DNA from: a virus
Strand: one strand, 5' to 3'
Virus record (IMG/VR): IMGVR_UViG_3300031456_000016
Location: 1 to 30,876 of that record
DNA: 30,876 bases
The notes under the pieces are model-generated. The model saw nothing but the letters and a program-made list of their open reading frames with translations. It did not search any database and was not told the origin of the DNA. How positions within the stretch are numbered: position 1 is the first letter of the stretch; each line of letters opens with the position of its first letter. This document shows, one piece after another, positions 2,732 through 27,995 of this stretch. The position numbers and the translations under genes were made by a program.

Positions 2732-2763
2732 GGCGGAGCGTCCTCACGTGAGTACGCTCCGCC
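2732..2763. promoter_or_regulatory. Dispersed palindrome, site 1
   Basis: Two 16-base arms meet at CAC|GTG (2747/2748) with one mismatch. The core is AGCGTCCTCAC / GTGAGTACGCT and the stem is extended by GGCGG/CCGCC. It fills most of the 62-base gap between the small gene at 2776-2973 and the start of the 757-residue tail gene. It could be an operator, or a hairpin in the late transcript. Confidence 0.8.
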
Positions 2764-2775
2764 GTGCGGTCGTCG

Positions 2776-2973
2776 TTACTCGAAGATCGGGAGACCTAGG
2801 CCCTCGTCCTCGCTTACCGTCGTTCCGTCGTCGACGACGATGATGTTTCCCGTGCTCGGGTAGCCCACGACCACCGTGTTTCCGTTGGCGTCCGTGGACG
2901 TCTCGGTGTGCGGAATGGTGTAGTCACCCGGTTGGGTCTCGTCCATCGGCCCCTGTATCTCGGACTCCGGCAC
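2776..2973 (-). CDS. Small acidic hypothetical protein
   Basis: 65 residues, GTG start directly after the TAA of the tape measure gene (TTC-TAA-GTG). The protein is acidic and rich in T, D, E and G (for example PMDETQPGDYTIPHTETS and GTTVSEDEGLGLPIFE), with a central strand NTVVVGYPSTGNIIVVDD. No catalytic motif or membrane segment is visible. I do not recognise a family. Its tight coupling to the tape measure and its place before the tail protein suggest a small tail or assembly component. Confidence 0.6.
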   Translation of the reverse strand: MPESEIQGPMDETQPGDYTIPHTETSTDANGNTVVVGYPSTGNIIVVDDGTTVSEDEGLGLPIFE

Positions 2974-5900
2974 TTAGAAGTTCCTCCCTAGGTCAGCGGG
3001 ACCAACGAGCCCCGATTCGATGCGTGCGTCTGCGCGCCTGTCTACGTAGGCCTCCAGCTCGGTGCCTCCCGCCACGAGGACGAGACGGTCTCCAGGCTGC
3101 AAGCCTCCGCCCCCGCTGCTTGCGAGGGTCGTGACACTGCGCCACTGTGCAGCGGTGAGGATGGCCTCGGGGCTACCGGTCTTGTTCACGGACATGGTGG
3201 CTCCAGGCTGAAGCCATCCCCCGCTGTCGTACTTGCGCGAGGGGGCGAACCCATACCAGTCCGTAAACATCGAGTCGTTGTACCCACGGGCGCGGGAGCC
3301 GATTACAACTCCGTCGCCGCCGCGCGATTCGACATTCACACCGTTGAGGGTTCCGGCCGTATGTCCGACACCGGAGTTTGTGATGCCGATCCGGTACGGG
3401 GCAGCGAGGCCGCGCACCCAACCGGGAGGAGCGGTCGAGCCACTGAACGAGCCGGTTGCCCAGCGTCGGTGTGGCTTCTGGCCGCGAATCACAGACTCGA
3501 TGGCGGACGTCAGACCCGAACAGTCCCACGAGGGGTTTCCATTTCCGCCCCACTGATATCGCTTGCCGTTCTGCGTGCGAGCCCAGCGGAGTGCGGCCTG
3601 CGTGCCCTTGCCACCAATTCCGGCGGCCTCCATCTTCTTGTCGGACTCCTTGGAGTATCCGAAGATGGAATCCACGATCTTGGTGGGGATGCCGCGCGCC
3701 ATCTGGCCGAAGCCCGAGTCTGCCCCGGGGATCTGCGAGAGCAGCGGGTTGACGACGTGCTTGACACCAGCGCGCGCCGAGGACTCGATGGTGTCTCCGA
3801 GCCAGGATGCGCCCTTCTTGATGCCCTCCCATGCGTCGGAGCCAACCCCCTTGATGTCCGAGCCAACACCCTTGATCCATCCGAAGATGCCGCCATCCGC
3901 AAACCGCTGCGATCCGTCGCCACCGAGCGCGTTACGCACGGCACCGACACCGCCTGACTTGGCAGTGGCATTCATCTTGTGGACCCAGCCAGCGCCGACA
4001 GCACGCGTGAACTCCGGGCGGAAGATGGACTCTCCACCGCTGAGCTCCAGGCCCCCGCCAGTGGGGGAGTAGAACTTGTGCGGATCACGCCCGGGGGTGT
4101 ATCCCGGCATGACGCCACCACTGGCGAACTTCAGGGTCTTCAACGTGGGCGCGCCGAACGCCTTGGCGACCTTGTTCCACATGGGGACAATTCCGCCGTT
4201 ATAAACGACGTCCACGATGAACTTGATGGGCGCCTTGGCGAGACCCTCGACCTTTTTCCACTGCTTGCCGATGTAGTCCTTGGCCGTGTTGAACGAGTCG
4301 CCAACGGCCTTGACGCCCCGCTTCATGAGGTCGAACGAGGGCTTCACGCCCTTTTCCCAAAGCCACTTGGCGATGTCGGCCACAGAGCGCAGCGCGGGAC
4401 GGACGCCCTTTTCGTAGAGCCACCCGAATACGGCACCGAGAGCGCGGATGCCCTCCTTGAAGTACCCCCACACTGGCTTCACGCCGTTGTTCCAGAGCCA
4501 CACAGCAAGGCGGGCGATGTTGTCCACCGCTGGCTTCACTGCGTTCTTCCAGAGCCATACGAACGCGTCGCCGAGGACCTGGAGGCCGAGGACGAGCGAG
4601 TCAACTACGGGCTTGACGCCGTTCTCCCACAACCAGACAGCAGCAGCGGCGATGAAATCGAATGCTGGCTTTACAGCGTTCGTCCACAGCCACGAGAACA
4701 CCGCACCGAGCGCGAGCACGGCCAGATAGATCGGACCGAACACCACGACGGTTATGAGGGTCAGTAGGATTCGCGCTGCCGTGTCGATGAACGCAAAGGC
4801 GGGCTTGATGGCGTTGTTCCAGAGCCACATAGCCGCGTCGCCTACCGAGCGCATGACGCTCATGAATCCGTCGAACACTGGCTTCAGGACGTTGTTCCAG
4901 GCATAGAGCGCTGCGTCCTGGATTCCCTGCCAAGCTGACTGAACGATCTGCCGGAAAGTCTCCGACTTCTGGTACGCGAGGACGATGACGCCGACGAATG
5001 CCAGAATGGCCAGCACGATCAGCGTGAACGGGTTGAGCGACATCACGGCGTTCAGCAGCGTGTGCGCGGCGGCCATGCCGTTCGTGACCGCGATACCGAT
5101 CAGCATCACGCCCCGGTAAACCGTCATGATCCCGGTTACGATTCCGGTGGCGATGGCCTGCGCGTTGAGTGCCACGGTGACGCCGAGGATTGCCAGCGCG
5201 AACGGAGCTATCCACGCGATGTTGTCGCGCACCCAAGCGAACGCGTCCTTACCCCAGCGGGCGACGTCCTTGACGGTATCGATCAGGCCCATAAGGGCAG
5301 GGATGCCGTACTTGACGAGTGCGCCGACGAGGTCTTGCTGAACGGTTCGGATCATCGTCTGAAACTCGTACTGCGGTCCGCTGCGCAGGGTGTCGCCCAT
5401 GCGCTTCGCGGCTCCACCTACCTTGCCGAGTGTCCCAACGGCCTTGGAGGGGTCGAGGCTGAAGAGCGCGGTACCGAGGTCCTCGGCCTGCGTGCCGAAC
5501 AGACCCACAGCGGCGGCCTCGCGGGCAACCGGGTCCTTCATGGCGCGGAGCCGGTCTAGGACCGTGTCCAGACCCCCAGTGGCCGACTTCCCGCCCTTGC
5601 CGATCTTCGCTGACATGGTGTCCATGTCCAGGCCGAGCGACTTATACGCAGCGGCCGTTCCCTTGGACCCATCGATTGCGCGGATGGAGAATTCCTTGAA
5701 CGCGTCCGCGATGATGTCGGTATCCCGCGCGCCACCCTTGAGGCCCTGCGAGAACAGGCCAAGCGAGGTCTCGCTGTCCAATCCGAGCTTCTTGAGCTGG
5801 ACGCTGTACTCCTGGAAAGTCTCCAAGAGGTCGTCAGCGTTGGGGCCGAGCTTCTGGAACCCTGTAGCGATGACGTCCAGCGCTGCGTCAGCATCCGGCG

Positions 5901-6402
5901 CGAGACCGTTCTTCAGCATCGCTGACACGGCCTGCGTTTGCATGCCCATGTCGGTGCCGAACGTGCGCGCAACGTCGCTCATCTTGGTCGCGATTGACTC
6001 AAGCTGCTTGTTCGTCGCGTCAGGCTTGACGAGCCCACCGTTGACGACAGCGCGGATGGACTCTGCGCCCTCCTCGAAGTTGTCGACGACGCCCTTGGCG
6101 AGGAGCTGTCCGGCGACCTTGCCGTAGCGCCCAGCGTCCTTGCTGGTGGCGCCGAGCTGTGCCTGTAGCTTGCTCGTCACGTTGGCCTGTTCGAGCGCCT
6201 GCCCCATGAGCTTCGCAAAGCCTGCGCCGATGGCCAGCGCTCCGGCGAACGCTGCGCCCTTGAAGCCTCCGGAGAACCCCTCTCCCGCGTCCTGTCCGGC
6301 ATTCGCAGCGGGACTGACCATCTGTCGGCGTAGGTCGCCCTGGAAGCCCTGCAACGAAGGGACGATGGACACATACGCCACCGCGATCTCAGGTGCTGGC
6401 AT
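2974..6402 (-). CDS. Tape measure protein with C-terminal NlpC/P60-like domain
   Basis: 1142 residues, ATG, Shine-Dalgarno AAGGGATG. It is the longest gene of the window, sits just after the tail assembly chaperones, and has the usual tape measure composition: A/G-rich N-terminus (MPAPEIAVAYVSIVPSLQGF), a hydrophobic segment around residues 395-480, and a repetitive Trp-rich middle. At least eight copies of W-L-W-x-N-x-V-K-P occur in the segment encoded at about 4340-4915. The C-terminal part holds a DCSG motif (Cys961) and GHTAGT (His1014), matching the Cys/His pair of NlpC/P60 (C40) peptidases, preceded by RYQWGGNGNPSWDCSG. Such domains locally cut peptidoglycan during DNA entry. The protein sets tail length; at about 0.15 nm per residue one would expect a tail of roughly 170 nm. 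Confidence 0.93.
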   Translation of the reverse strand: MPAPEIAVAYVSIVPSLQGFQGDLRRQMVSPAANAGQDAGEGFSGGFKGAAFAGALAIGAGFAKLMGQALEQANVTSKLQAQLGATSKDAGRYGKVAGQLLAKGVVDNFEEGAESIRAVVNGGLVKPDATNKQLESIATKMSDVARTFGTDMGMQTQAVSAMLKNGLAPDADAALDVIATGFQKLGPNADDLLETFQEYSVQLKKLGLDSETSLGLFSQGLKGGARDTDIIADAFKEFSIRAIDGSKGTAAAYKSLGLDMDTMSAKIGKGGKSATGGLDTVLDRLRAMKDPVAREAAAVGLFGTQAEDLGTALFSLDPSKAVGTLGKVGGAAKRMGDTLRSGPQYEFQTMIRTVQQDLVGALVKYGIPALMGLIDTVKDVARWGKDAFAWVRDNIAWIAPFALAILGVTVALNAQAIATGIVTGIMTVYRGVMLIGIAVTNGMAAAHTLLNAVMSLNPFTLIVLAILAFVGVIVLAYQKSETFRQIVQSAWQGIQDAALYAWNNVLKPVFDGFMSVMRSVGDAAMWLWNNAIKPAFAFIDTAARILLTLITVVVFGPIYLAVLALGAVFSWLWTNAVKPAFDFIAAAAVWLWENGVKPVVDSLVLGLQVLGDAFVWLWKNAVKPAVDNIARLAVWLWNNGVKPVWGYFKEGIRALGAVFGWLYEKGVRPALRSVADIAKWLWEKGVKPSFDLMKRGVKAVGDSFNTAKDYIGKQWKKVEGLAKAPIKFIVDVVYNGGIVPMWNKVAKAFGAPTLKTLKFASGGVMPGYTPGRDPHKFYSPTGGGLELSGGESIFRPEFTRAVGAGWVHKMNATAKSGGVGAVRNALGGDGSQRFADGGIFGWIKGVGSDIKGVGSDAWEGIKKGASWLGDTIESSARAGVKHVVNPLLSQIPGADSGFGQMARGIPTKIVDSIFGYSKESDKKMEAAGIGGKGTQAALRWARTQNGKRYQWGGNGNPSWDCSGLTSAIESVIRGQKPHRRWATGSFSGSTAPPGWVRGLAAPYRIGITNSGVGHTAGTLNGVNVESRGGDGVVIGSRARGYNDSMFTDWYGFAPSRKYDSGGWLQPGATMSVNKTGSPEAILTAAQWRSVTTLASSGGGGLQPGDRLVLVAGGTELEAYVDRRADARIESGLVGPADLGRNF

Positions 6403-6408
6403 GCGGCA

Positions 6409-7052
6409 TCATCCCTTCGAAGTGCGCTTCCGGAACGCTTCCAGTGCAGCGCCAGTAATGACCTTGGGCTTCTTGGCCTCAAGGCCTGGACGCGGATACG
6501 GCTCCGGGAACGGTGGCCGGTTGCGCTGCGGAACGTCCTTGACCATGACTTGCCATGCCGTGACGTTAGTTGCGTCGATGGCGTCGGCCAGTAGGAAGTC
6601 AGTGCGGGTCCACAGCGGCTCGCCCTTGTTCATCGCCATGCGCGTCGCGCTGTCCGGCGGAAGCCCCCGAATGAGGACGTCCACCTTGCGGGGGCTCAAC
6701 GTTCCTCGCCACATGTCGAGTAGGTCGAACCCCCGGAATGCGAGGTCTGCCTCTATCGCGTCCCCGTGCTCTTGAATGAGCGCGAGGAGGCTTAGGAGTT
6801 TCCCGCATTCACCTTCTCGCCCGCGACGTTCATGAACTCGCCGAGGGCCTTTACCTTCTTGTTGCCAGCGCGGAACTTGGCGTACTGCTCGTCGCCGAGG
6901 AGCGCCCGCAGCGCGTGCGTGAGCCGCTGCTCGTCGATGGCCTCAAGGACGTCAATGTCCCACTCGTCGGCGGTGGGGATGATGTAGGTCTCTCCGTTGA
7001 ATTCGACCTCGTGGGCCGTGCCGGTCGCGTCGTTCTTCTTGGTGGTCGCCAT
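6409..7052 (-). CDS. Tail assembly chaperone, frameshift product (gpGT-like)
   Basis: Read from the ATG at 7050-7052 through a -1 frameshift at GGGAAAC (6798-6804) to the TGA at 6409-6411. In the -1 frame the sequence continues LLSLLALIQEHGDAIEADL, then AFRGFDLLDMWRGTLSPRK, a segment typical of the C-terminal half of lambda gpGT-like chaperones in actinophages. The downstream frame has no good start of its own before MWRGTL, and its coding character begins exactly at the slippery site. The fusion is about 213 residues. These chaperones coat the tape measure during tail assembly and are absent from the virion. Confidence 0.88.
6792..7052 (-). CDS. Tail assembly chaperone, unshifted product (gpG-like)
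   Basis: 86 residues, starting at MATTKKNDATG. I chose the ATG at 7050-7052 because AGGAG lies 6 bases before it; the frame is open upstream to 7103 but that stretch is low in coding character. The protein reads VEFNGETYIIPTADEWDID and ALRALLGDEQYAKFRAG, typical of the acidic helical gpG proteins. It ends VNAGNS at a TAA 3 bases past the slippery site. Unshifted product is normally made in excess over the fusion form. Confidence 0.9.
   Translation of the reverse strand: MATTKKNDATGTAHEVEFNGETYIIPTADEWDIDVLEAIDEQRLTHALRALLGDEQYAKFRAGNKKVKALGEFMNVAGEKVNAGNS
6798..6804 (-). promoter_or_regulatory. -1 ribosomal frameshift slippery heptamer GGGAAAC
   Basis: The zero frame reads GCG GGA AAC TCC TAA, so G-GGA-AAC fits X-XXY-YYZ exactly. 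The zero-frame stop lies one codon downstream, and the -1 frame enters the open chaperone reading frame. This is the standard arrangement between the two tail chaperone frames before a tape measure gene. Confidence 0.92.
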
Positions 7053-7085
7053 GATGTCTCCTGAGTGGATATTGGGTGGATGAGG

Positions 7086-7157
7086 AGGGGCGGGAGCGTC
7101 CACCCGTTAGCCAGCGTCCTCGCGTGAGGATGCTGACTCCTCGGCACTCCCGCCCCT
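7086..7157. repeat. Nested inverted repeat enclosing dispersed palindrome, site 2
   Basis: The outer arms AGGGGCGGGAG (7086-7096) and CTCCCGCCCCT (7147-7157) are perfect 11-base complements. Between them lies the palindrome AGCGTCCTCGC / GTGAGGATGCT at 7113-7134 (two mismatches). The block lies between the major tail protein and the chaperone genes. In RNA it could form a large stem; there is no U-tract, so an attenuator or processing site is more likely than a simple terminator. Confidence 0.75.
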
Positions 7158-7176
7158 GGTATGCGTGCCGCTGGCC

Positions 7177-7740
7177 TTAGGCCGCAGCGCCCTGGGGGTC
7201 GTTGTCGTAGTCCAGGTACAGGACGTCGTTCGAGTCCGGGTAGACCGTGATGGTCAGCTCGAACGCCTGGAGGTCGCTGTCCGACAGCGTGACCTCACCG
7301 ACCTCGACAACCTCGCCGATCGGAACGTGACGCCGACGCTTGATGTCGCCGTCTTCCAGCTCCAGCACGAACGAAACCTTCTCGCTCTTGGGAACCTTGA
7401 CCGTCCGGGTGTTGATGTTCGAGGTCTCGTCCGTGGTGACCGTGGAGTTCGGGTTGGTCAGGCCGAACACGACGAGGTTGTCCTCAAGACATGTGACCTT
7501 GAGCTGTCGCTTGTGCTTGCTCCGGCGCGTACGGACGAGTCGCCCGCCCCAGGAGTAGAACTCGTTCACGTCCTCGTCGCGCGACTCGGAGGCGCCATCC
7601 TCGGACAGGAGGCCGACGGCCTTCCATGCCGGGACCGTGGTCATCGCCGCTGTGAGATCCGTCGGCAGCGCGGTCGCCCGAGGGGCCGTCCAGAGGTCCG
7701 CCCCTTCCCAGAGGCGGGGGTTTGCGGTATCACCAGCCAT
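7177..7740 (-). CDS. Major tail protein
   Basis: 187 residues, ATG with AAGGAG upstream (GTAAGGAGTCTCACC). The N-terminus MAGDTANPRLWEGADLW and the strand-rich middle (SKHKRQLKVTCLEDNLVVFGL, TRTVKVPKSEKVSFVLEL) are those of siphovirus tail tube subunits. Position also fits: tail terminator upstream, chaperones and tape measure downstream. Many copies stack as hexameric rings to form the tail tube. The acidic C-terminal tail YLDYDNDPQGAAA is common in this family. Confidence 0.9.
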   Translation of the reverse strand: MAGDTANPRLWEGADLWTAPRATALPTDLTAAMTTVPAWKAVGLLSEDGASESRDEDVNEFYSWGGRLVRTRRSKHKRQLKVTCLEDNLVVFGLTNPNSTVTTDETSNINTRTVKVPKSEKVSFVLELEDGDIKRRRHVPIGEVVEVGEVTLSDSDLQAFELTITVYPDSNDVLYLDYDNDPQGAAA

Positions 7741-7751
7741 GGTGAGACTCC

Positions 7752-8111
7752 TTACTCACCCCGGAGGGTGAACTCAAATGCGAATGCGTAGCGGGGGGTG
7801 CCGGAATCGGGGTCCGGCAGATCCTGAGGCCCCCCAACCTCAGCGGCACGCCGTAGCGTCATCGCATGCGAGCGGGCAGACTCCATCAGGTCCCATGCGT
7901 CCTCCTCCGTCGCCGCCCATGCGTGCACGTCGATTCGGGGGCGATCAGTGACCACGGTGTTGCGGAGGCCGCCAACGCGCTTGACGCGAATGAACGTCTC
8001 GGGGCGGTCCTCGGGAACCTCGGAGTAGACCAGTGTTCCGGGCAGTGCGGCGCGGAGAAACTCGATCACGTAGAGGACTGCATCGGGGAACCGAACGAAC
8101 GGCTTAGCCAT
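7752..8111 (-). CDS. Tail terminator protein
   Basis: 119 residues, ATG, overlapping the upstream gene by 8 bases. It opens with a helix (VRFPDAVLYVIEFLRAAL) and carries strands ETFIRVKRVGGL and RPRIDVHAWAATEEDAWDL, then a helix that ends near RAAEVGG. This helix-strand-strand-helix layout and the place directly before the major tail protein match the lambda gpU / SPP1 gp17-like tail completion proteins, which cap the tail and join it to the head. Confidence 0.78.
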   Translation of the reverse strand: MAKPFVRFPDAVLYVIEFLRAALPGTLVYSEVPEDRPETFIRVKRVGGLRNTVVTDRPRIDVHAWAATEEDAWDLMESARSHAMTLRRAAEVGGPQDLPDPDSGTPRYAFAFEFTLRGE

Positions 8112-13442: not shown

Positions 13443-13464
13443 AGCATCCTCACGTGAGGACGTG
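13443..13464. promoter_or_regulatory. Dispersed palindrome, site 3
   Basis: AGCATCCTCAC followed by GTGAGGACGTG; the centre lies at 13453/13454 and the inner seven positions on each side match. It fills the 35-base gap between the terminase stop and the portal start. On the minus strand its right arm ends in GATGCT directly before the portal Shine-Dalgarno GGAGGTGA. Confidence 0.75.
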
Positions 13465-16387: not shown

Positions 16388-16681
16388 CTAGAAGAGAGGG
16401 GTGGAGTATCCACAGTCAGCATGGGTCTTTACCCTGTGACAGGGCTTGCACAGCACCTGCACGTTGCCCTCGACGTCCTCGCCGCCCTTGTGTATGGGCT
16501 CGATGTGGTCTATCTCGACCAGCGAGGGGAGAGGCTGTGCAGGGCACGCAGCGCACTGAGGGCGGATGCCGTCGGCGACGTAGGCCGCGCGCATGAGCTT
16601 GCGCAGGTCTGCCGCAGCGTGTGAGCCCCGGGCGATGGTTACGCGTCGAGTGCGCTGTGAGCGCGTGTTCCGCGTGGCCAT
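16388..16681 (-). CDS. HNH endonuclease
   Basis: 97 residues, ATG with GGAGG 4 bases upstream. Basic N-terminus (TRNTRSQRTRRVTIARGSH), then the core CAACPAQPLPSLVEIDHIEP, GGEDVEGNVQVLCKPCHRVK: CxxC, D-H, N and C-x-x-C-H in the order of a complete HNH motif. It is a second HNH gene only 129 bases from the first. One may act with the terminase and the other may be a free-standing homing-type nuclease, but nothing shows which. The dispersed palindrome site 4 touches its Shine-Dalgarno. Confidence 0.88.
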   Translation of the reverse strand: MATRNTRSQRTRRVTIARGSHAAADLRKLMRAAYVADGIRPQCAACPAQPLPSLVEIDHIEPIHKGGEDVEGNVQVLCKPCHRVKTHADCGYSTPLF

Positions 16682-16690: not shown

Positions 16691-16712
16691 AGCGTGCTCA
16701 CGTGAGGATGTG
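16691..16712. promoter_or_regulatory. Dispersed palindrome, site 4
   Basis: AGCGTGCTCAC followed by GTGAGGATGTG, centre 16701/16702, with a conserved CTCACGTGAG core. On the minus strand it runs ...CTCACGTGAGCACGCT and then GGAGGCGAC-ATG, so its arm abuts the Shine-Dalgarno of the HNH gene exactly as site 3 does for the portal. Confidence 0.75.
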
Positions 16713-16760
16713 CGCTACGCAAAGAACCTTCTACGGGTCTTTCCCCTGCGTAGCGCTGCG

Positions 16761-16834
16761 TGCCGGATCGAGGATTCGAACCAAGGACCTCCCCCTTGAA
16801 TGGCGGGGGTGCTCTTCCACTGAGCTAATCCGGC
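16761..16834 (-). tRNA. tRNA-like gene with nine-base anticodon loop
   Basis: 74 nt. Acceptor GCCGGAT/ATCCGGC pairs fully, D stem GCTC/GAGC with loop AGTGGAA, variable region AGGTC, T loop TTCGAAT, discriminator A, no encoded CCA. The anticodon stem CCCCC/GGGGG encloses nine bases (GCCATTCAA) instead of seven, and no U sits at the usual position 33, so the anticodon cannot be fixed (AUU, UUC or UCA are possible readings). The T stem CTTGG/CCTCG has two mismatches. It may be an unusual functional tRNA or a decaying one. Confidence 0.7.
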
Positions 16835-16970
16835 GAACGGGGCGACGGACTCTTACCGTCCCGCCTCCGTGTTCGCACCGCTGACTAGGCGGGCTACTAG
16901 GGAGGGGCTCAACTGTGAGCTTGCCCCTTGAGCTATCGTCGGTCCCGGTCAGGGCCCTATTGTCGCTCCG
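16835..16970. other. Spacer between tRNA genes with several hairpins
   Basis: No gene is visible. There is a perfect dyad CCCGCCT...AGGCGGG with 20 bases between, a 5-bp stem GACGG/CCGTC with a 7-base loop, and AGGGGC...GCCCCT on the minus strand. The minus-strand stretch GACCGACGATAGCTCAAGGG looks like a tRNA 5' end, but I cannot find a matching acceptor strand or T arm, so I do not call a tRNA. Confidence 0.4.
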
Positions 16971-17044
16971 TGTGTCTGGAAGGATTCGAACCTCCGGCTG
17001 ACGCCCCCACCAAGGAGGCCGCTCTACCGCTGAGCTACAGACAC
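16971..17044 (-). tRNA. tRNA, probably Pro (TGG), irregular anticodon arm
   Basis: 74 nt. Acceptor GTGTCTG/CAGACAC pairs fully; D stem GCTC/GAGC with loop AGCGGTA; T stem GGAGG/CCTTC with loop TTCGAAT; discriminator A; no encoded CCA. The simplest anticodon arm is GCCTC-CTTGGTG-GGGGC, giving anticodon TGG, but base 37 is then U rather than a purine and the variable region has seven bases. A nine-base loop with a five-base variable region is the alternative, at the cost of one stem mismatch. Confidence 0.8.
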
Positions 17045-17458: not shown

Positions 17459-19060
17459 TCACTCGTCGAGGTCGCCGCCCCCCGGCTCGGCCCACGTGAT
17501 CACGCAGCGCGCGGGGCCGTTGAACGGATGACCCTGCCCAGGTGCCTTGCATACTGTGACGTACTCCACAGCGATGCCAACGAGGTCGCGCCTGGTGAGG
17601 CCGTCCGACTTGGCCCATGTCTCCTCGGCGAGTCCATGGCGCAGGAATCCGAGATCGATCGAATCCCCACCGGTGAGCTCCTTGACCCGGTCCTCGGCCA
17701 CCTTGAGGCGCTCCTCGCGCTCCCGCTTGTGCGGCATCCGGTACTTGGCGCTGCGCCCCTCGTAGAACCCCGCTGCGTCGTCCTGGTGGAACTTGTCGAG
17801 GCCCGCCTCAGCGCTCCGCATCGCCGCAGTGGCCTCTCGGATCTCCTGCGTCTCCTCGGGCCTCTGGAGGGTTGTCCAGCGCTCCGCAGCGGCAAGCATG
17901 ACCGGGTCGTCGTCCTCGCTGTGCTCCATCCGCGCGAGCCAGCGAGAGGCAACGTAGCTCTCGACGGCCGGGCGGGAGACCAGGGCAGGGGCTGCGCAGT
18001 GGCCGCCTATCTGGTAGCGGTAGCAGTTGTACGAACTTCCCGTGGCGACCATGGCGCCCGAGCAACCGGCGCACCGGATACGCCCAGCAAGGATGTGCGT
18101 CGGCAGACCCGTGTTCGGCTCTGTCGGCATGATGCGCTGGCCGGACAAGGCCGCTCTCGCCCGAGTGGCGACGTCGGCCGAGATCATCCGGGGAAGTACG
18201 GCCTCGTCCACGCAGCGGACCCGTTCGCCCTTGGGGTTGAGGTAGGCCACGTTCGTACGTCGGAGGAGCACCGTGAGCCATCCCTCGTACGCAGGGTGCA
18301 CCACGAGGTTGCGCACGGAGGCGCCGGACCATGGCACTCCGTGTGCAGTCACGTGTCCCTCAGCGTGCAGCACACGGGCCAGCGCACGGCCGGAGGTCTC
18401 GCCCTTGGCCAGCGTCTCGAAGATGCGCACCACGACATCCCAGGGCGCGACCTCTGTGCGGCTGGAGGCGAGGCAGTAGCGGGGCGTCGTGTCTGGCTTC
18501 AGTCGCCGTGTCACGGGGTCGACGGCGAGACCGTACGGAGCTCGGCTCAGCCAGCGCCCCTCGTTCCGCTGTCGATTCTTGGTGGTCTTCACGTTGTAGC
18601 TGAGGCGGTGGCTGTACTCGCGCGCCATCTCAGCGCGGTCGATGATCCATCGGCGGTCGCGCTCGTTCATCGAGTCGAGGCGCTCATAGTCGAAGATCAC
18701 GCGTGCCTTGCCGAGCACGGGAACGACGGCCTCGGCGCCCTTGCGGCTGAAACGGTCCATGGCGTAGCACCAAAGCGCGGACACGTCACCATGCAGGACG
18801 GCGCTCAACGCTGCGTCCATCTTGGGTCGGTCGACGTCGCTCCACGCGCTGAGGTTCTCGGCCCATACCTTGCGGACCCGGTAGCCGTTCTCGTCGGCCC
18901 ATCGTCGGCCAAGCTCCTCCTGTGAGCGGATGGACAGTGCGCGCTCGCCCTCGCGCACGATGCGTGACTTGCGGAGGAGGAGATCTACAAAAGGCTGGTG
19001 TTCTGAGTCGCTCATGTCGTCGTCGTCGTGCGGAAACGGCCCGTTTTTAGACCTTGTCAC
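17459..19060 (-). CDS. Large serine integrase
   Basis: 533 residues from the GTG at 19060; an ATG at 19013-19015 would give 518. The catalytic domain has LLRKSRIVREGERALSIRSQ with the Ser of RKSR (residue 32) as likely nucleophile, and the conserved Arg motif MDRFSRKG (101-108). A recombinase domain follows (WLSRAPYGLAVDPVTRRL, VRNLVVHPAYEGWLTVLLR), then a zinc ribbon IRCAGCSGAMV...CYRYQIGGHC and a helical stretch of coiled-coil type (about residues 405-475). The enzyme joins attP and attB to insert the phage into the host chromosome. It is the only clear lysogeny gene here. Neither start has a strong Shine-Dalgarno. TGACCTGCGG motifs lie on both sides of the gene. Confidence 0.94.
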   Translation of the reverse strand: MTRSKNGPFPHDDDDMSDSEHQPFVDLLLRKSRIVREGERALSIRSQEELGRRWADENGYRVRKVWAENLSAWSDVDRPKMDAALSAVLHGDVSALWCYAMDRFSRKGAEAVVPVLGKARVIFDYERLDSMNERDRRWIIDRAEMAREYSHRLSYNVKTTKNRQRNEGRWLSRAPYGLAVDPVTRRLKPDTTPRYCLASSRTEVAPWDVVVRIFETLAKGETSGRALARVLHAEGHVTAHGVPWSGASVRNLVVHPAYEGWLTVLLRRTNVAYLNPKGERVRCVDEAVLPRMISADVATRARAALSGQRIMPTEPNTGLPTHILAGRIRCAGCSGAMVATGSSYNCYRYQIGGHCAAPALVSRPAVESYVASRWLARMEHSEDDDPVMLAAAERWTTLQRPEETQEIREATAAMRSAEAGLDKFHQDDAAGFYEGRSAKYRMPHKREREERLKVAEDRVKELTGGDSIDLGFLRHGLAEETWAKSDGLTRRDLVGIAVEYVTVCKAPGQGHPFNGPARCVITWAEPGGGDLDE

Positions 19061-20994: not shown

Positions 20995-21026
20995 CCCCCA
21001 GCATCCTCACGTGAGGATGCTGGGGG
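20995..21026 (-). terminator. Dispersed palindrome, site 5, as terminator hairpin
   Basis: A perfect 32-base palindrome: the 22-base core AGCATCCTCAC/GTGAGGATGCT extended by CCCCC/GGGGG. It begins 17 bases after the stop of the gene at 21044-21373 and is followed on the minus strand by CCTTTCCTTTGC, so it can act as an intrinsic terminator as well as an operator. Confidence 0.75.
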
Positions 21027-21401: not shown

Positions 21402-21431
21402 AGTAAAGCACAGGTACTCACGCTGCCGCAA
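21402..21431 (-). promoter_or_regulatory. Repeated promoter, copy 3
   Basis: -35 TTGCGG (21426-21431), 18-base spacer containing GCGTGAGTACCTG, extended -10 TGC-TTTACT (hexamer 21402-21407). The start codon lies 29 bases beyond the -10 box. It follows the terminator at 21439-21464. Confidence 0.7.
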
Positions 21432-21464: not shown

Positions 21465-21470
21465 CGTGTG

Positions 21471-21966: not shown

Positions 21967-21996
21967 AGTAAAGCACAGGTACTCACGCACGCACAA
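21967..21996 (-). promoter_or_regulatory. Repeated promoter, copy 2
   Basis: -35 TTGTGC (21991-21996), 18-base spacer with GCGTGAGTACCTG, extended -10 TGC-TTTACT (hexamer 21967-21972), start codon 29 bases beyond. The -35 box touches palindrome site 6. Confidence 0.72.
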
Positions 21997-22020
21997 CAGC
22001 ATCCTCACGTGAGGATGCTG
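21997..22020. promoter_or_regulatory. Dispersed palindrome, site 6
   Basis: A perfect 24-base palindrome with core AGCATCCTCAC/GTGAGGATGCT. It starts 1 base after the stop of the gene at 22022 and ends directly against the -35 box of promoter copy 2, a fitting place for an operator. No U-tract follows. Confidence 0.85.
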
Positions 22021-22021
22021 C

Positions 22022-22390: not shown

Positions 22391-22419
22391 GCTGACCCCT
22401 CCCCAAGATGACTGACCAG

Positions 22420-22440: not shown

Positions 22441-22444
22441 GAAA

Positions 22445-22466
22445 GGCCCCCGCCGGAGCGGGGGCC
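22445..22466 (-). terminator. Intrinsic terminator
   Basis: GGCCCCCGC/GCGGGGGCC, nine base pairs with a four-base loop, followed on the minus strand by TTTCGCG. It lies 5 bases after the stop at 22471. Confidence 0.9.
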
Positions 22467-22470
22467 GTTT

Positions 22471-22749
22471 CTAGGTGACGATCAGGTAACTACCATGCCG
22501 AGCTACCGTGTACCCTCTCGCCTCCAGGTCGGAGGCGTATTCCGAGAGCATCTCAGTTCGCTCCGCACCGACGTGGGCGAACTGCTCGTCTCCCGCTCGC
22601 CAGAAGATCGTCACGCGCCCTGGGTCTTCCATGAGCTTGTACCCGGCGGTCACGAACCCCGTGGCGTTGATCAGGGCCGAGGGTTTGTATCCGAGGCTCC
22701 GCAGAGTGCGGGCGATGCTGAGCTTGGTGGGCTTCTTGTCGGTGGGCAT
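22471..22749 (-). CDS. Small hypothetical protein
   Basis: 92 residues from the ATG at 22747-22749 with GAGAGGA upstream. It reads KLSIARTLRSLGYKPSALIN, then strands GRVTIFWRAGDEQFAHVGAE and a closing GYTVARHGSYLIVT, an alpha/beta layout. It lies between two terminators, so it has its own transcript. A TTGACA 26-31 bases before its start may be its -35 box. No known family. Confidence 0.68.
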   Translation of the reverse strand: MPTDKKPTKLSIARTLRSLGYKPSALINATGFVTAGYKLMEDPGRVTIFWRAGDEQFAHVGAERTEMLSEYASDLEARGYTVARHGSYLIVT

Positions 22750-22796
22750 GGGGGTATCCTCTCGCGCCGATGTCGGCATGTCAACGGACAGCAAAA

Positions 22797-22821
22797 GACC
22801 CCCGGGATTCCTCCGGGGGTC
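22797..22821 (-). terminator. Intrinsic terminator
   Basis: GACCCCCGG/CCGGGGGTC, nine base pairs with a seven-base loop, followed on the minus strand by TTTTGC. It lies about 19 bases after the stop at 22840. Confidence 0.9.
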
Positions 22822-22839
22822 ATCTTTGCCGAGTGCCGA

Positions 22840-23037
22840 TCAGTCGGCAGATGCCACGCGAACTCGACGCTGGAAGTGCCGTAGTGCGTCGCCGCGCTGC
22901 CGGGTGACCAGTAGGCCTCGCTCTGTTCCGTCGCTGACTCGGTACCATGTACCCGGGGTGCCCAGCGTGCCGAGGTCGTCGCTAAGGCTCTCCAGCGTTA
23001 TACCGGCGCTACTGGTCTCTGTGGTCCATCGTTCCAT
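22840..23037 (-). CDS. Small hypothetical protein
   Basis: 65 residues, ATG with a strong Shine-Dalgarno GGAGG. It reads MERWTTETSSAGITLESLSD and ends RQRGDALRHFQRRVRVASAD. It lies between a tRNA-like element and a terminator. A small soluble protein with a basic C-terminus; function unknown. Confidence 0.65.
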   Translation of the reverse strand: MERWTTETSSAGITLESLSDDLGTLGTPGTWYRVSDGTERGLLVTRQRGDALRHFQRRVRVASAD

Positions 23038-23074
23038 TTGTCCTCCAGGTGACTGGTACCTCGTCTGTGCTGAG

Positions 23075-23125
23075 TGCCCCGGGCGGGAATCGAACCCACC
23101 TACCCTTGCGGGTCACCATCGGGGC
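23075..23125 (-). ncRNA. tRNA-like acceptor/T-arm element
   Basis: 51 nt that fold as GCCCCG/CGGGGC acceptor, T arm GTGGG-TTCGATT-CCCGC in canonical geometry, discriminator A, and a small hairpin ACCC-GCAA-GGGT in place of D and anticodon arms. It starts 7 bases after the stop of the gene at 23133. It may be a tRNA that lost its middle, or a functional minihelix at the end of a transcript. Confidence 0.5.
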
Positions 23126-23132
23126 GGACGTG

Positions 23133-23297
23133 CTACGCGCTGCGCTTGCTGCGGGGGAGCGGGGCGAAGTAATCGCGGACGCTGGACCTGTTGTCTTCCC
23201 AGCGGAGCGTGACCCATCGGAAGCTGTGAGCGTGTCGCGGGTTCTCGTCGCACTCGCTACCGTGTGTCGCGCACTTGAGCTTGCGTACTTCGGCCAT
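23133..23297 (-). CDS. Small Cys/His protein
   Basis: 54 residues, ATG at 23295-23297 with GGGG/GAGG upstream. It reads MAEVRKLKCATHGSECDENP and RHAHSFRWVTLRWEDNRSS. The pattern C..H...C...H.H could bind a metal. It starts 30 bases beyond the -10 box of promoter copy 1. Family unknown. Confidence 0.6.
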   Translation of the reverse strand: MAEVRKLKCATHGSECDENPRHAHSFRWVTLRWEDNRSSVRDYFAPLPRSKRSA

Positions 23298-23326
23298 CTT
23301 GTCCCCTCGTCGTCCTGCGGAGCGTC

Positions 23327-23356
23327 AGTCAAGCACAGGTACTCACGCTGACGCAA
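23327..23356 (-). promoter_or_regulatory. Repeated promoter, copy 1
   Basis: -35 TTGCGT (23351-23356), 18-base spacer with GCGTGAGTACCTG, extended -10 TGC-TTGACT (hexamer 23327-23332), start codon 30 bases beyond. The -35 box touches palindrome site 7, and the stop codon of the lipoprotein gene lies inside the spacer. Confidence 0.7.
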
Positions 23357-23606
23357 CAGCATCCTCACGTGAGGATGCTGCCTCGGGGCTCGCTCGCTTG
23401 GCGTCCTCCTCGGCGCGCTCGGCGCAGTAGGTCACGGGGGCGGTTGTGAGCTTCGGCTTGCCGTTGACGTAGGTCGTCGTCGTCCGTATCTCCGTGTCCC
23501 AATCGAGACACTCGGGGACGTCCTCGCAACCGGTGAGCGCGAGCACGGCCAGCATCGCAGCGGCCATGGCGGAAGCCTTGACGGCCTGCGGGAAGTGGTT
23601 GGTCAT
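23343..23606 (-). CDS. Lipoprotein
   Basis: 87 residues, ATG overlapping the upstream stop as ATGA. A signal peptide KASAMAAAMLAVLALTGC ends in a lipobox LTGC (Cys27), so the mature protein should be lipid-anchored outside the membrane. Four Cys remain or fall close by (Cys27, Cys32, Cys60 visible). The C-terminal residues EAASSREDAVASA are encoded by the palindrome site 7 and the start of promoter copy 1. Phage lipoproteins expressed from early regions often block superinfection; here this is inference. Confidence 0.75.
   Translation of the reverse strand: MTNHFPQAVKASAMAAAMLAVLALTGCEDVPECLDWDTEIRTTTTYVNGKPKLTTAPVTYCAERAEEDAKRASPEAASSREDAVASA
23357..23380. promoter_or_regulatory. Dispersed palindrome, site 7
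   Basis: Perfect 24-base palindrome with the core AGCATCCTCAC/GTGAGGATGCT. It lies inside the last codons of the lipoprotein gene and directly against the -35 box of promoter copy 1. Confidence 0.85.
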
Positions 23607-23722
23607 CCGCGATGACGTCCCTTCTTGGAAAGCGGTCGCTTAGCGATCAGCATGGCGAGTGACCCGCAGATGAGCCAGAAGCCGAGGGCGTAGAGGGCGT
23701 ACGCGGCGAATGCGGAGGTCAC
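23603..23722 (-). CDS. One-helix membrane protein
   Basis: 39 residues, GTG start overlapping the upstream stop as GTGA, stop overlapping the lipoprotein ATG as ATGA. It is almost all one transmembrane helix, FAAYALYALGFWLICGSLAM, followed by a basic tail KRPLSKKGRHRG that should face the cytoplasm. Tight coupling suggests that it works with the lipoprotein at the membrane. Confidence 0.65.
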   Translation of the reverse strand: MTSAFAAYALYALGFWLICGSLAMLIAKRPLSKKGRHRG

Positions 23723-24084
23723 TGCTCACCCCTCATGGCGCGCTCGAAGTGGAGGGCGTCCGACACGCCTTGGCGCATCCTGTCGGCCTCCCTGCGCGTC
23801 CACGCCTCTCGCCGCGCGCTCATCGTCGCCGGGGGAGGGGTGACGCTCATGCGCCCCGTGACGCTCCCCATGCCCTTGATGACCGCCTCCACGTCCCTGC
23901 CGGTGGCGGCGCGCACGAGCCACTGTGCGAGGTCCAGCGCCTCGGAGGGGGACAGCTTGGCGCGGTCGCCGACTACGGCGAGGCTGATCACGTCGGGCTC
24001 CGTCTCGGTCTCCCATGCTCGGATGCGCCCGCCTCCGCTGGCCGAGCCCTCGATGATGTTTTCGCGACGCTGCTTGAACGGCAT
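23719..24084 (-). CDS. Hypothetical protein
   Basis: 121 residues from the ATG at 24082-24084 with GGAG upstream; the open frame before it is a shadow. It reads RRENIIEGSASGGGRIRAWE, then DVISLAVVGDRAKLSPSEAL and DLAQWLVRAATGRDVEAVIK, followed by a basic helix. The middle 'LSPSEALDLAQWLV-A' is a common C-terminal helix of small actinophage proteins. Function unknown. Confidence 0.65.
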   Translation of the reverse strand: MPFKQRRENIIEGSASGGGRIRAWETETEPDVISLAVVGDRAKLSPSEALDLAQWLVRAATGRDVEAVIKGMGSVTGRMSVTPPPATMSARREAWTRREADRMRQGVSDALHFERAMRGEQ

Positions 24085-24129
24085 GTGTCTCTCCTGCGTA
24101 TCGGTAGGCATGAACGGACTTGCTGAGTA

Positions 24130-24173
24130 CTCCAGGAGGCCTACGACGGCCGCACGGCTTAACCGTCCTGGAG
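24130..24173. repeat. Inverted repeat in a 97-base gap
   Basis: CTCCAGGA (24130-24137) and TCCTGGAG (24166-24173) pair perfectly across 28 bases. The gap separates the run of overlapping genes to the right from the gene at 23719-24084. GAGTAC follows on the minus strand. It may be a weak terminator or an operator. Confidence 0.45.
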
Positions 24174-24181
24174 CGATGGGA

Positions 24182-24343
24182 CTAGATGTCGCGCGCCCTG
24201 CGCAGCGACTCCAAGGCCTCGTATATGAGGGGCGTGAGGTACAGCGGCCCAACACGGAGAGGCCAGGACCGGAGCGTCAGCTTGCCGCCCTCTCGCGTCC
24301 AGACGTACTCCTTGCCGAACATGACCAGCTCTCGACGTCGCAT
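24182..24343 (-). CDS. Small hypothetical protein
   Basis: 53 residues, ATG at 24341-24343 with AAGGAG upstream, which lies in the end of the preceding gene. It reads MRRRELVMFGKEYVWTREGG and TLRSWPLRVGPLYLTPLIYE. A compact, basic strand-and-helix protein with no known motif. Confidence 0.6.
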   Translation of the reverse strand: MRRRELVMFGKEYVWTREGGKLTLRSWPLRVGPLYLTPLIYEALESLRRARDI

Positions 24344-24345
24344 GC

Positions 24346-24507
24346 TCAGATCTCCTTCAGGTCGGCCACCAGCGCGGCAGCGTCGTCCTCGTTCAGCTCC
24401 ACGGTGGCCACGGTGCGACCGGCAGCGTTGCGCACATGCAGATCGATACGGATCCCGCGCCACTGCGCCTCGATGGTCCAGCCCTCGACAGTCTCGAACG
24501 TCCTCAT
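24346..24507 (-). CDS. Small hypothetical protein
   Basis: 53 residues, ATG at 24505-24507 overlapping the upstream stop as ATGA. It reads MRTFETVEGWTIEAQWRGIR and ends ELNEDDAAALVADLKEI, a strand-strand-helix layout seen in many small actinophage proteins. Function unknown. Confidence 0.62.
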   Translation of the reverse strand: MRTFETVEGWTIEAQWRGIRIDLHVRNAAGRTVATVELNEDDAAALVADLKEI

Positions 24508-24743
24508 GCTCGTCCCTCCAGGGCTTCAGCGTGCTTGCGGGCGCACGCGATGCGGAATGCTGCGTTGTCCAGGCACTTGCGCTTGGCTCGGCTGATGGCC
24601 ACATGGCCGCTCGGGTGGTCTCCAGGCCATACGTAGACCGTCTCGACCTCCCGGGAGCCGAACCGCTTACGGGACTCTCGGAGCGTCACCTTGATGCCGC
24701 CAAAGGCCGCGTAGCCGATCCGGTAGAAGTACCGGCCCCTCAT
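24504..24743 (-). CDS. Small basic hypothetical protein
   Basis: 79 residues, ATG at 24741-24743 overlapping the sigma-like gene stop as ATGA. It reads GGIKVTLRESRKRFGSREVE, VYVWPGDHPSGHVAIS and a C-terminal basic helix KRKCLDNAAFRIACARKHAE. It may bind nucleic acid, but nothing decisive is visible. Confidence 0.62.
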   Translation of the reverse strand: MRGRYFYRIGYAAFGGIKVTLRESRKRFGSREVETVYVWPGDHPSGHVAISRAKRKCLDNAAFRIACARKHAEALEGRA

Positions 24744-25615
24744 GCGGTCACGCCCTCGGGCTTCCGGCGCGCGTAGGCCGTCTCGATCGGGAACCGCTCG
24801 GCGAACTGCTTGCATCCCTTGCGCCATGCGTCGTTGACGGCGACGCGGGAGGGGCGCTCCAGGATGCGGGCCTCGATCAGCCGCGAGACCTCCTCGGCCG
24901 CAAGCTCCAGGGTCTTACCCTCGCCGAACTCTGCGCGGGCCTTGAGGACCTCGCGACGCAGCGGGGAGAGGCTGTCGAGCACGTCGTGAACCAGCGCGAT
25001 GCGCGCCTTGCGGTCCGCCCGGTTGCGGTCGTCCGGAGTGATCAGGTCGTCCGGCACATCGAAGCACGCGAGGTCGCTCGCGATGGAGTCGCCGAAGGTT
25101 CCCGAGGGCTCGTCCGCGCTGCCTCCGTTGGCGGGAGCGTCCAGGCTCCGCGTGCCCTGGTACGCGAGCCGTGCGGCCTCCGCCCGGTCGGGGCTCAGTC
25201 GCCGCTCGACGTCCGGCAGGGAGCGTGCGAGGCGCTCGGCAAGGTATCCGTCGCCCTTGGCCGTCTTCAGGCACAGCATGTAGGTACGCATCGCGTCGTG
25301 GTCGGCCCCGGGGTTGCGCTCCGTGTACACGGCCTCTGCGATCGCGCCGCGTATCCGCTTGAACAGGAACGTCTCGGCCGAGGCTTTGGAAGCGTGCGAC
25401 TCGTCCCAACGGCTGATGGCCTCCCACATTGCGAGGCGCCCCGTGCTCTCGAACTCCTCGGCCATCGTCGCCGCGTGCTGGTGGCCGTTTGCGACCTTGT
25501 TCGCCGCCTCCCGGGCGACCGCCGCTATGAGGCCCTCCGTGGCCTTGACGATGGCTCGTACGTCCTCAGCGTTGTGCTCCTGTGCGCCCTTGACCGTTGC
25601 CGCTGTAATCGCCAT
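24740..25615 (-). CDS. RNA polymerase sigma-factor-like protein
   Basis: 291 residues, ATG with AGGAG upstream. Around residues 50-100 it reads EEFESTGRLAMWEAISRWDE, then AETFLFKRIRGAIAEAV, close to sigma region 2 (E-...G-LA-WEAI-R-D...A-TFL-KRIRGAI-EA). Around residues 205-280 it has LDSLSPLRREVLKARAEFGE and a helix-turn-helix-like end RPSRVAVNDAWRKGCKQFAE, like region 4. The linker between is long and acidic. It could be a phage sigma factor that turns on phage promoters. It follows the 465-base repeat-rich block and heads a run of overlapping genes. Confidence 0.7.
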   Translation of the reverse strand: MAITAATVKGAQEHNAEDVRAIVKATEGLIAAVAREAANKVANGHQHAATMAEEFESTGRLAMWEAISRWDESHASKASAETFLFKRIRGAIAEAVYTERNPGADHDAMRTYMLCLKTAKGDGYLAERLARSLPDVERRLSPDRAEAARLAYQGTRSLDAPANGGSADEPSGTFGDSIASDLACFDVPDDLITPDDRNRADRKARIALVHDVLDSLSPLRREVLKARAEFGEGKTLELAAEEVSRLIEARILERPSRVAVNDAWRKGCKQFAERFPIETAYARRKPEGVTA

Positions 25616-26080
25616 GTGCTTGCTCCTGATGTCCGGTTGCTGAGGTGCTCGTGGGGTAGCGGCCTCGCCCCGGACAGGGGCAGCACTGTGCGCTCGTCAG
25701 ATCTGAAGCGACCGAGTGAGGGCAAAGAGATGCCCGATGTCCGGTGAGACCTGATCCGACGTGCGCACGTCTGATCGTTGGTTGCGTGAGTACCTGACCA
25801 CGACTGCAAATCTGTGGTCAATGTGTGTGCGCTGTGTAGACACGTGTGGCTGGTGTGAAGTTGCAGCCATGATCGAAGGTGAGACCAGGCTCAAACCTTC
25901 GATGTAGTTGAATCGGATACGAGCGTCCCGCGTAACATTTGCGAAACCAAGGAAGCGCCTTTAACGGGGCGTCAGAAAGTTCGACTCAAAGAATCTTGGA
26001 ACTGTGACCTACTCCGCAGCATCCTCACGTGAGTACGCTGCGGAGTGTGACGAGGTCGCCCAAACGGTCACGCTGCGCTA
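25616..26080. other. Repeat-rich non-coding block; possible origin or control region
   Basis: 465 bases without a gene. It holds the perfect hairpin ATCGAAGGT/ACCTTCGAT (25872-25880, 25895-25903), a dyad TGACCAC/GTGGTCA (25795-25801, 25814-25820), the 14-base palindrome GACGTGCGCACGTC (25758-25771), two near-identical 16-mers GTGCGC(T/A)CGTC(A/T)GATC (25688-25703, 25761-25776), the decamer GATGTCCGGT twice, and a plus-strand copy of GCGTGAGTACCTG (25785-25797). An AT-richer patch lies at about 25930-26010. Palindrome site 8 lies at its right end. Confidence 0.5.
26011..26046. promoter_or_regulatory. Dispersed palindrome, site 8
   Basis: 36 bases, arms ACTCCGCAGCATCCTCAC and GTGAGTACGCTGCGGAGT with two mismatches. 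It lies 34 bases after the DNA polymerase stop. The hairpin is strong but no U-tract follows it. Confidence 0.8.
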
Positions 26081-27940
26081 CTAGAAGTCGGCTCCGTACA
26101 GCGACCCCCACGAGCGCTTGCCGATCTCCCCCTCAGCGGTAATCGGAACCCCGAAAAGGTCCATGGTCATGCACTTGCGGATCTCGCGCTCGACCTCCTC
26201 GACTTCCCCCGTGGGGGCGAACGCCAGTACCTCGTCATGGATCGGCAAGCGGAGGTAGGGCAGGAGCCCCGCAGCGTCCATATCGATCAGGCTTTGACCC
26301 AGGACGTCACGCGCTGCGGACTGGCACGCGTAGTTGACGACCGCGTACGTCCTCTTGCGGTCCAGCGGCAGACGGCGACCGGTGGCCGAGATGTGCACCA
26401 TGCCGTTCTGATACGCCTGTCGCGTCCACTTCTTAGAGCTCCGGGAGATCTCCGGATACAGCCGGTTGTACGTGTTGATCGCGTGCTGGACGTCGGCTTC
26501 AGGAGCGCCGGACTGGCGAGCCAGCGTGGTGACCCCTCCGCCGTATACCTTGCCGAGCCCAACCGTCTTGTACTTCTTGCGGTGGTACTCCGTGGCGTCC
26601 TCTCCCGCGACGAGCCGAGCGGTGAACCAGTGGATATCCTCGTCGTTGGCGAACGCCTCCTTCATTCGCCGCACGTCGGCCAGCGCTGCCAAGACGCGCA
26701 TCTCGATGGCGCTGAAGTCAACCGAGATCACAGCCTCCCCAGGGTCGGCGAGGAGGCAGCGGCGAATCATCATGTCCCGGGAGGGGAGTGTCTGCACGGC
26801 CGCTCGCGTGACGCTCATGCGCCCCGTGCGCGCCTGCAAGGTGTTGATATTGCAGTGGACGTATCCGTCCTCGTCCATCTCTTCAAGGAACGTGTCGACG
26901 TACGCCGTGCGCCACTTGCTCGCGCGCTTGGCGTGATACACGGCCTCAGCGAGCGGGTTGGGGGTCCGCCCTCCGATGCGCTCCCACTTGTCGTTGCGGT
27001 CGCAGAGGTGCAGGAGGACTGACTTGTCCACCTTGAGGTTCCCCGCGTCGGTGCGCTCCGTGAGCTCCTCGCCGGACTCAAGGAGCGCCTTGGCTATCTG
27101 ATCGGGGGAGCCGAGCTTGAGCACGCCGTAGCTCTGTACGATCTCGAAGTTCCGCTGATAGTCGGCATCGAGGGTGTCGTACAGCCCCTCTGTGTACTCC
27201 TTGTCGACCAGCATTCCCGCGCGGGACATGGTGGCGCAGATGCGCGAGATCTCGTGCTCGTAGTCGAGGAGCTCCTTGCGGACACCGAGGCGCTCCAGCT
27301 CGGCGAGGTGAACGGGCAGGAGGCGGGCGCCGAGGATGACGTCAAGGAGGGCGTACTCGACGTACAGCGGGTCGAAGATGTCGATTCCGGCCCAACCGGT
27401 CTCTTTGGTGAACCCCAGCGAGTTGAAGTGCTTGGTGAGGCCGTCCTGAGTGTCGGGCGCTGAGGGATCGATGTAAAACGCAGCCTGAGGCTTCAGCTTC
27501 GGGCCGAGCCCTCCCGCCTCCGGGGGTCGAGGGTCGAGGAGCTTAGAGGTAATCATCGTGTCCGTGGACTTGGAACAGATGACCTCCAGGGACACGCCAA
27601 GATGCTTGTCCGAGGCGAGCCCATCGAACGAGATCATGTTGTGCCCGGTCAGCGCCGGTAGTTCGATCAGGGCCGTGCGCGCTGCGTGGTAGAACGGCCG
27701 ACCGAGCTCAACGGGGATAGCCCAAGCCTCGGTGGCGTTGCCGAACTGCGAGAGGCGAACAAAGCTACGGCCCATTTTGCGGGCCTGGTGGTAGATGCCG
27801 AGACCGAGTGTCTCCGTGTCGAAACACGTCGTTCCGCGCTGTCGCCGGACCCACTCAAGGAACTTGGGTAGATCCTCGACCCGCTCGACGAGGTACCCAC
27901 GCCACGGGAGGCCGCCAAGCGACCCGCTGAACTCCTTCAT
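26081..27940 (-). CDS. DNA polymerase I family (family A)
   Basis: 619 residues from the ATG at 27938-27940 with GGGAGG upstream; the open frame before it is not coding. The proofreading domain is intact: Exo I FDTETLGL (Asp41, Glu43), Exo II GHNMISFD (Asn101, Asp106), Exo III YALLD (Tyr196, Asp200). The polymerase domain has motif A ISVDFSAIEMRVLA (Asp408), motif B RKKYKTVGLGKVYGGG (454-469) and motif C LPIHDEV (His568, Asp569, Glu570). The 5' nuclease domain of cellular Pol I is absent, as in other phage enzymes. It replicates the phage genome with the primase-helicase encoded upstream. Confidence 0.95.
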   Translation of the reverse strand: MKEFSGSLGGLPWRGYLVERVEDLPKFLEWVRRQRGTTCFDTETLGLGIYHQARKMGRSFVRLSQFGNATEAWAIPVELGRPFYHAARTALIELPALTGHNMISFDGLASDKHLGVSLEVICSKSTDTMITSKLLDPRPPEAGGLGPKLKPQAAFYIDPSAPDTQDGLTKHFNSLGFTKETGWAGIDIFDPLYVEYALLDVILGARLLPVHLAELERLGVRKELLDYEHEISRICATMSRAGMLVDKEYTEGLYDTLDADYQRNFEIVQSYGVLKLGSPDQIAKALLESGEELTERTDAGNLKVDKSVLLHLCDRNDKWERIGGRTPNPLAEAVYHAKRASKWRTAYVDTFLEEMDEDGYVHCNINTLQARTGRMSVTRAAVQTLPSRDMMIRRCLLADPGEAVISVDFSAIEMRVLAALADVRRMKEAFANDEDIHWFTARLVAGEDATEYHRKKYKTVGLGKVYGGGVTTLARQSGAPEADVQHAINTYNRLYPEISRSSKKWTRQAYQNGMVHISATGRRLPLDRKRTYAVVNYACQSAARDVLGQSLIDMDAAGLLPYLRLPIHDEVLAFAPTGEVEEVEREIRKCMTMDLFGVPITAEGEIGKRSWGSLYGADF

Positions 27941-27957
27941 GCTTTCCTCCCATGCGA

Positions 27958-27995
27958 ACGGCCACAGCATCCTCACGTGAGTACGCTGTGGCCGT
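27958..27995. promoter_or_regulatory. Dispersed palindrome, site 9
   Basis: 38 bases, arms AACGGCCACAGC-like outer stem around the core AGCATCCTCAC/GTGAGTACGCT with two mismatches. It lies 13 bases after the stop of the small membrane protein gene and directly before the Shine-Dalgarno of the DNA polymerase. Confidence 0.82.

Follow-up and report, generated by a model that had tools for sequence, protein, structure and literature searches.

Nine dispersed dyads as probable CIR-type operators, four of them also RNA hairpins, in a fragment of a phiC31-like phage

Nine palindromes sharing one core recur along a fragment of viral DNA, and their dispersal raises the question of what the sites do and what recognises them. 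The window, i.e. the whole stretch of DNA analysed, is the linear virus record IMGVR_UViG_3300031456_000016 of 30,876 bases, so the system is seen within this fragment. The phage is phiC31-like and of Streptomyces type, and the window covers a 30.9 kb fragment of it. Its terminase protein is 86–87% identical to those of the Streptomyces phages AbbeyMikolon (the nearest relative, 87%), Nesbitt and SF1, and 75% identical to that of Rowa; compared with these four genomes, the fibre–lysis–repressor–exonuclease stretch is missing from the fragment. No relatives were found with the window sigma factor as query, and the capsid relatives in IMG/VR (L043–L118) were without the dyads. All named genes are on the minus strand, and the main features are as follows:

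28538-30814, minus strand: primase
about 26081-27940, minus strand: DNA polymerase
24740-25615, minus strand: sigma factor
17459-19060, minus strand: serine integrase
16970-17044: tRNA-Thr (GGT)
16760-16834: tRNA-Asn
16388-16681, minus strand: HNH endonuclease
running down to 440, minus strand: terminase, portal, capsid and tail genes

The predicted anticodon of the tRNA-Asn is ATT (A at position 34), which is unusual for a bacterial Asn tRNA. The SF1 genome (NC_028807) looks like two phages joined, from about 17.2 kb onwards: its left part is AbbeyMikolon-like, and terminase, portal, capsid and tail genes then occur again as a complete set. No gene for a c-type repressor turned up in it.

The palindromes had been listed in a sequence-only reading of the window, and all nine are present:

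2732-2763, minus strand: dyad with paired arms GGCGG/CCGCC, 30/32 bases self-complementary, RNA fold z −4.05; between a small gene that follows the tape measure gene and the next tail gene (440-2713)
7113-7134, minus strand: dyad with core CTCGCGTGAG; between the major tail protein and tail assembly chaperone genes
13443-13464, minus strand: dyad within the 35 bases that separate the terminase large subunit gene from the portal gene, adjoining a GGAGG ribosome-binding site; fold z −1.26
16691-16712, minus strand: dyad between tRNA-Asn and the HNH endonuclease gene, adjoining GGAGG; fold z 0.04
20995-21026, minus strand: perfect 32-bp dyad with CCCCC/GGGGG arms, a terminator-like hairpin with the tail CCTTTCCTTT; fold z −5.17
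21997-22020, minus strand: perfect 24-bp dyad in a small-gene region, immediately 3' of a stop codon
23357-23380, minus strand: perfect 24-bp dyad overlapping the 3' end of a small ORF
26011-26046, minus strand: dyad with arms CTCCGC/GCGGAG, 32/36 bases self-complementary, fold z −3.92; between the DNA polymerase and sigma factor genes
27958-27995, minus strand: dyad with arms GGCCAC/GTGGCC, 34/38 bases self-complementary, fold z −4.06; between the primase and DNA polymerase genes

The exact core CTCACGTGAG is found in eight of these dyads and nowhere else in the window. The core of the 7113 dyad, CTCGCGTGAG, differs by one change, so the shared core claimed for all nine holds for eight. The three perfect palindromes of 24 to 32 bases are as reported, and the suggested scan with the 22-base consensus AGCATCCTCACGTGAGGATGCT at up to three mismatches returned eight matches, against none in 100 dinucleotide shuffles; the dyad at 16691 is a ninth match, at four mismatches. 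The imperfect sites had been described as variants of one kind, which is correct for 2732, 26011 and 27958, the only places with the GTGAGTACGCT half. One half ends in GACGTG or GATGTG instead at 13443 and 16691, and 7113 carries its own separate change. The operator contains TGA on both strands, and a gene can therefore end inside it. The stop codon of the small ORF at 23365-23529 can be a TGA inside the dyad, where the two overlap at 23365-23380.

The motif had been thought unlike any known sequence, which proved wrong, and the conserved inverted repeats (CIRs) of phiC31 had been named as a parallel, which proved apt. Between 10 and 18 palindromes with the core CTCACGTGAG and flanks other than those of the window occur in each of phiC31, phiBT1, TG1, AbbeyMikolon and their relatives, and phiC31 and phiBT1 (Lomovskayavirus) contain 15 and 16 perfect copies of the core, within CCTACTCACGTGAGTAGG. 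We take these phiC31 and phiBT1 palindromes to be the CIRs that are bound by the c repressor; given the common core, the window motif is a CIR with a different outer half-site, CATC/GATG rather than CCTA/TAGG. The likeness extends to the near-perfect palindrome, the shared gene junctions and the dispersal of the copies, 15–18 in those phages, mostly intergenic and some inside hairpins. The copy lying upstream of c in phiC31 is annotated as inverted repeat B/B' in the repressor record X12865. Multiple repressor binding sites are dispersed across the phiC31 genome (PMC4557955).

Each relative has its own spelling of the flanks. AbbeyMikolon uses CACCACCTCACGTGAGGTGGTG, and the array CACCAC-CTCACGTGAG-GTGGTG of AbbeyMikolon and Nesbitt, which belongs to the closest whole-phage relative, has the same core as the window but a different half-site. 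TG1 uses AGGCACTCACGTGAGTGCCT, of the form AGGCA-core-TGCCT, and the centre is TTAA in Heather, Sebastisaurus and RemusLoopin. An uncultivated contig (IMG/VR 3300046529_000277) carries 13 copies of CCTCCTCACGTGAGGAGG and one of CATCCTCACGTGAGGATG, the window's own spelling, together with a gene for a PF25746 repressor. Rowa (NC_047906) has a different dispersed operator-like dyad, CACCTCCGAAAATCCGTAGGTG, in 17 places and also a PF25746 repressor. Across 85,000 genomes, the operator had eight matches, all single and scattered over unrelated phyla. Two short contigs with AGCGTACTCACGTGAGCATGCT (L006 and L015) were considered as relatives and rejected, as only 25 operator-like bases match, which was taken as chance.

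PF25746, the family of c-type repressors, was observed in 9/9 named relatives tested (phiC31, phiBT1, AbbeyMikolon, Nesbitt, Rowa, Dubu, Heather, TG1 and Euratis). No PF25746 gene was found in the window by hmmsearch (best E 0.85), the repressor-bearing region of the relatives being missing here, and we thus infer the binding protein from the relatives; by homology, such a repressor most likely binds the dyads. The alignment of c-type repressors was too diverged for use as a scanning query, and the AlphaFold model of the phiBT1 c repressor domain is all-helical with a pTM of 0.42, too uncertain for use. Operator type and repressor sequence did not correlate significantly beyond relatedness in 13 phages, with the Dubu sites mis-centred (partial correlation 0.12, p 0.29). 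In phiSASD1, dyads of the form TTGAC-CGACTCAATTGAGTCG lie at 30237, 32211 and 35084 and there is no significant match to a c-type repressor, as if the repressor had been lost while the operators stayed. The Arthrobacter phage DrSierra repeats CTTGCGCAAG, followed about 20 bases later by CTAGACTGTTTACAC, at 31772, 33369, 38990 and 39495; this repeat probably represents a promoter and the operator belonging to it, in a phage that has no PF25746.

The positions of the dyads are far from random with respect to gene borders, as had been claimed. Eight of nine site centres are intergenic in a window that is about 9% noncoding (P about 3e-8, with a hand-made, approximate gene set). The same holds for complete relatives, where about 10% of the sequence is intergenic and the intergenic sites amount to 15/16 in phiC31, 11/13 in AbbeyMikolon and 15/17 in Rowa. 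Six junctions were compared, namely, terminase/portal, tape measure/next, primase/polymerase, polymerase/sigma, last HNH gene and tail protein/chaperone; the six window sites there have counterparts at six junctions in Rowa and five each in AbbeyMikolon and phiC31, the phiC31-like matches being all but tail protein/chaperone. AbbeyMikolon and Rowa have a site at the 2732 junction, and in phiC31 one follows the tape measure gene; the 7113 junction bears a site in AbbeyMikolon and Rowa; the 16691 junction in AbbeyMikolon, Rowa and phiC31; and the 26011 junction in these three and TG1. The terminase/portal junction (13443) has a site in phiC31 and Rowa but not in AbbeyMikolon, which has a scaffold/capsid site instead. 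The spelling in Rowa is wholly different at the same junctions, which indicates that the sites stay in place even when every one of them is respelled.

The dyads also contain two layers, which were separated by exchanging arms among the sites of one genome. At positions 6–11 from the centre, 41 pairs formed within the window sites and 42.0 were expected. At positions 13–19, 34 of 63 pairs formed against 18.2 expected (7 of 20,000 permutations were as good), and across 12 phages the same positions gave 483 of 1113 pairs against 335 expected (0 of 20,000). The inner part is thus conserved in sequence, as a shared protein site would be, and in the outer part only the pairing is kept; the inner ~22 bp is a candidate protein site. 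The outer arms pair at four window sites (2732, 20995, 26011 and 27958) and differ between sites, in agreement with the earlier proposal that the fold itself is selected. The compensatory changes that had been sought in related phages were found at the primase/polymerase junction of 11 phages, where the dyad is conserved: all seven outer pairs have changes on both sides, and 94.8% of cells are paired, where shuffles give 59% and sliding gives no more than 69%, counts that overstate independence because the 11 sequences represent roughly six independent arm lineages. Such two-sided changes argue that an RNA hairpin is also selected, and G-U pairs among the outer arms suit RNA rather than DNA. 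Seven of nine window sites fold significantly as RNA (z −3.9 to −5.2). In 12 phages, T is more frequent downstream of arm-bearing sites than of armless ones (36% vs 22%, p 9e-10), and more frequent than mirrored A upstream (25%, p 2e-5). Features of an intrinsic terminator, i.e. a GC-rich hairpin and a U-rich tail, were found only at 20995 among the nine window sites. The two sites beside GGAGG, 13443 and 16691, keep the core and have lost the fold, so the protein site is the element common to all nine. A hairpin beside GGAGG might hinder translation.

Taken together, the nine dyads are very probably dispersed CIR-type operators of a phiC31-like temperate phage, for which a c-type repressor would be the binder, and four of the sites would also act as RNA hairpins. 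This would be an ordinary operator system, of a type already known but with an operator specificity that is new, and the dispersed control system proposed earlier is well supported. A c-type repressor (PF25746) would bind the ~22-bp dyad AGCATCCTCAC/GTGAGGATGCT as a symmetric complex, and its gene is expected in the missing part, between the lysis and exonuclease genes. In a lysogen, lytic transcription would be silenced by the repressor at many places, through promoter blocking in the early region and, at the junctions of co-directional genes, probably through arrest of elongating polymerase. Independently of the repressor, the site-specific pairing arms would turn the dyads at 2732, 20995, 26011 and 27958 into extended RNA hairpins, of which one has a U-rich tail; these would end or process transcripts and be active in RNA during lytic growth, and operator and hairpin would then share one spot. 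Both roadblocking and termination are what we infer from this arrangement. A sigma-70-like promoter was not seen at most window sites, so that promoter blocking at each of them is only a possibility. Among the relatives, a TATGATT-like box comes just downstream of some armless sites of Samora, Lilbooboo and Heather, and TTGAC and a TA-rich hexamer flank the dyad in Dubu and SASD1, an arrangement that would suit promoter operators in those phages. In the window, no such box was seen. We tentatively suggest, as a possibility that we would not rate as probable, that operator and terminator are fused: the repressor dyad would form the hairpin tip, DNA roadblock and RNA hairpin would act at one point, terminator strength would depend on lysogeny, the stem would be free to evolve through compensatory changes, and the spelling could be rewritten genome-wide while positions and hairpins stay.

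Alternatively, the sites could be purely RNA elements, either intrinsic terminators or processing hairpins, with the shared core being only a favoured hairpin tip; the significant folds, the covarying outer arms with their G-U pairs, the downstream T of arm-bearing sites and the terminator fit of 20995 would all suit such elements. However, the ten-base core is fixed far beyond the needs of a hairpin and is kept at 13443 and 16691 where no hairpin forms, a U-tract is absent at most window sites, and all sites of one phage change spelling together with positions kept, which points to a trans-acting binder. A purely RNA function is therefore very unlikely.

The trans-acting binder might instead be the phage sigma factor (24740-25615) or a host regulator, considering that the phage encodes its own sigma factor and that CACGTG-type palindromes are common regulator sites. 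The window half-site dyad, however, has only eight occurrences among 85,000 genomes, each of them single and the phyla unrelated, and phages of one host genus differ in spelling, as they should not if a host factor were the binder; moreover, arrays occur in PF25746-bearing relatives, whereas DrSierra, with a related polymerase and no PF25746, is without them. Another protein is even less credible than an RNA-only role, and least credible is that the sites are boundaries of recombination or mobile repeats that aid module exchange. Their location at gene borders and their gain or loss at some junctions, such as terminase/portal between the window and AbbeyMikolon, would be expected of such boundaries, but no transferred block was found in the flanks at the same junction, the spelling is specific to the genome and not to the module, and the outer arms are site-specific and covarying.

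Besides the c-type repressor operators, two other known systems had been named as parallels, and both fail at the sequence level. The stoperators of L5-like (cluster A) mycobacteriophages resemble the window sites as numerous dispersed repressor sites outside promoters whose spelling diverges between phages, but they are asymmetric, 13 bp long and bound by a monomer, whereas the window sites are symmetric. The L5-type consensus is GGTGGMTGTCAAG, which had one match with two mismatches in the window, compared with 1.5 expected. The start-associated and extended start-associated sequences of cluster K mycobacteriophages are likewise repeats close to gene starts; where translation starts, the 13-bp GGGATAGGAGCCC is accompanied by 17-bp spaced inverted repeats (PMC3203893). 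No match to GGGATAGGAGCCC was found in the window at up to two mismatches, and most window sites lie after stop codons and not on the ribosome-binding site, in contrast to cluster K.

The new operator specificity probably defines a new immunity group in the phiC31 family, and the window provides a comparative case in which many dispersed operators were respelled together with their positions kept. Vectors and integrases derived from phiC31 are standard tools in Streptomyces, which gives practical use to predicting the pairing of repressor and operator. The protein layer is separable from the RNA-hairpin layer within one element, and this separation is directly testable. Finally, a 22-bp element, GCGTGAGTACCTGTGCTTKACT, is present in three copies on the minus strand (23327-23348, 21967-21988 and 21402-21423), upstream of three small genes. 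Two copies come directly after operators and the third after a hairpin with a T-run; the element, which includes the operator-like half GTGAGTAC, is a possible phage promoter.
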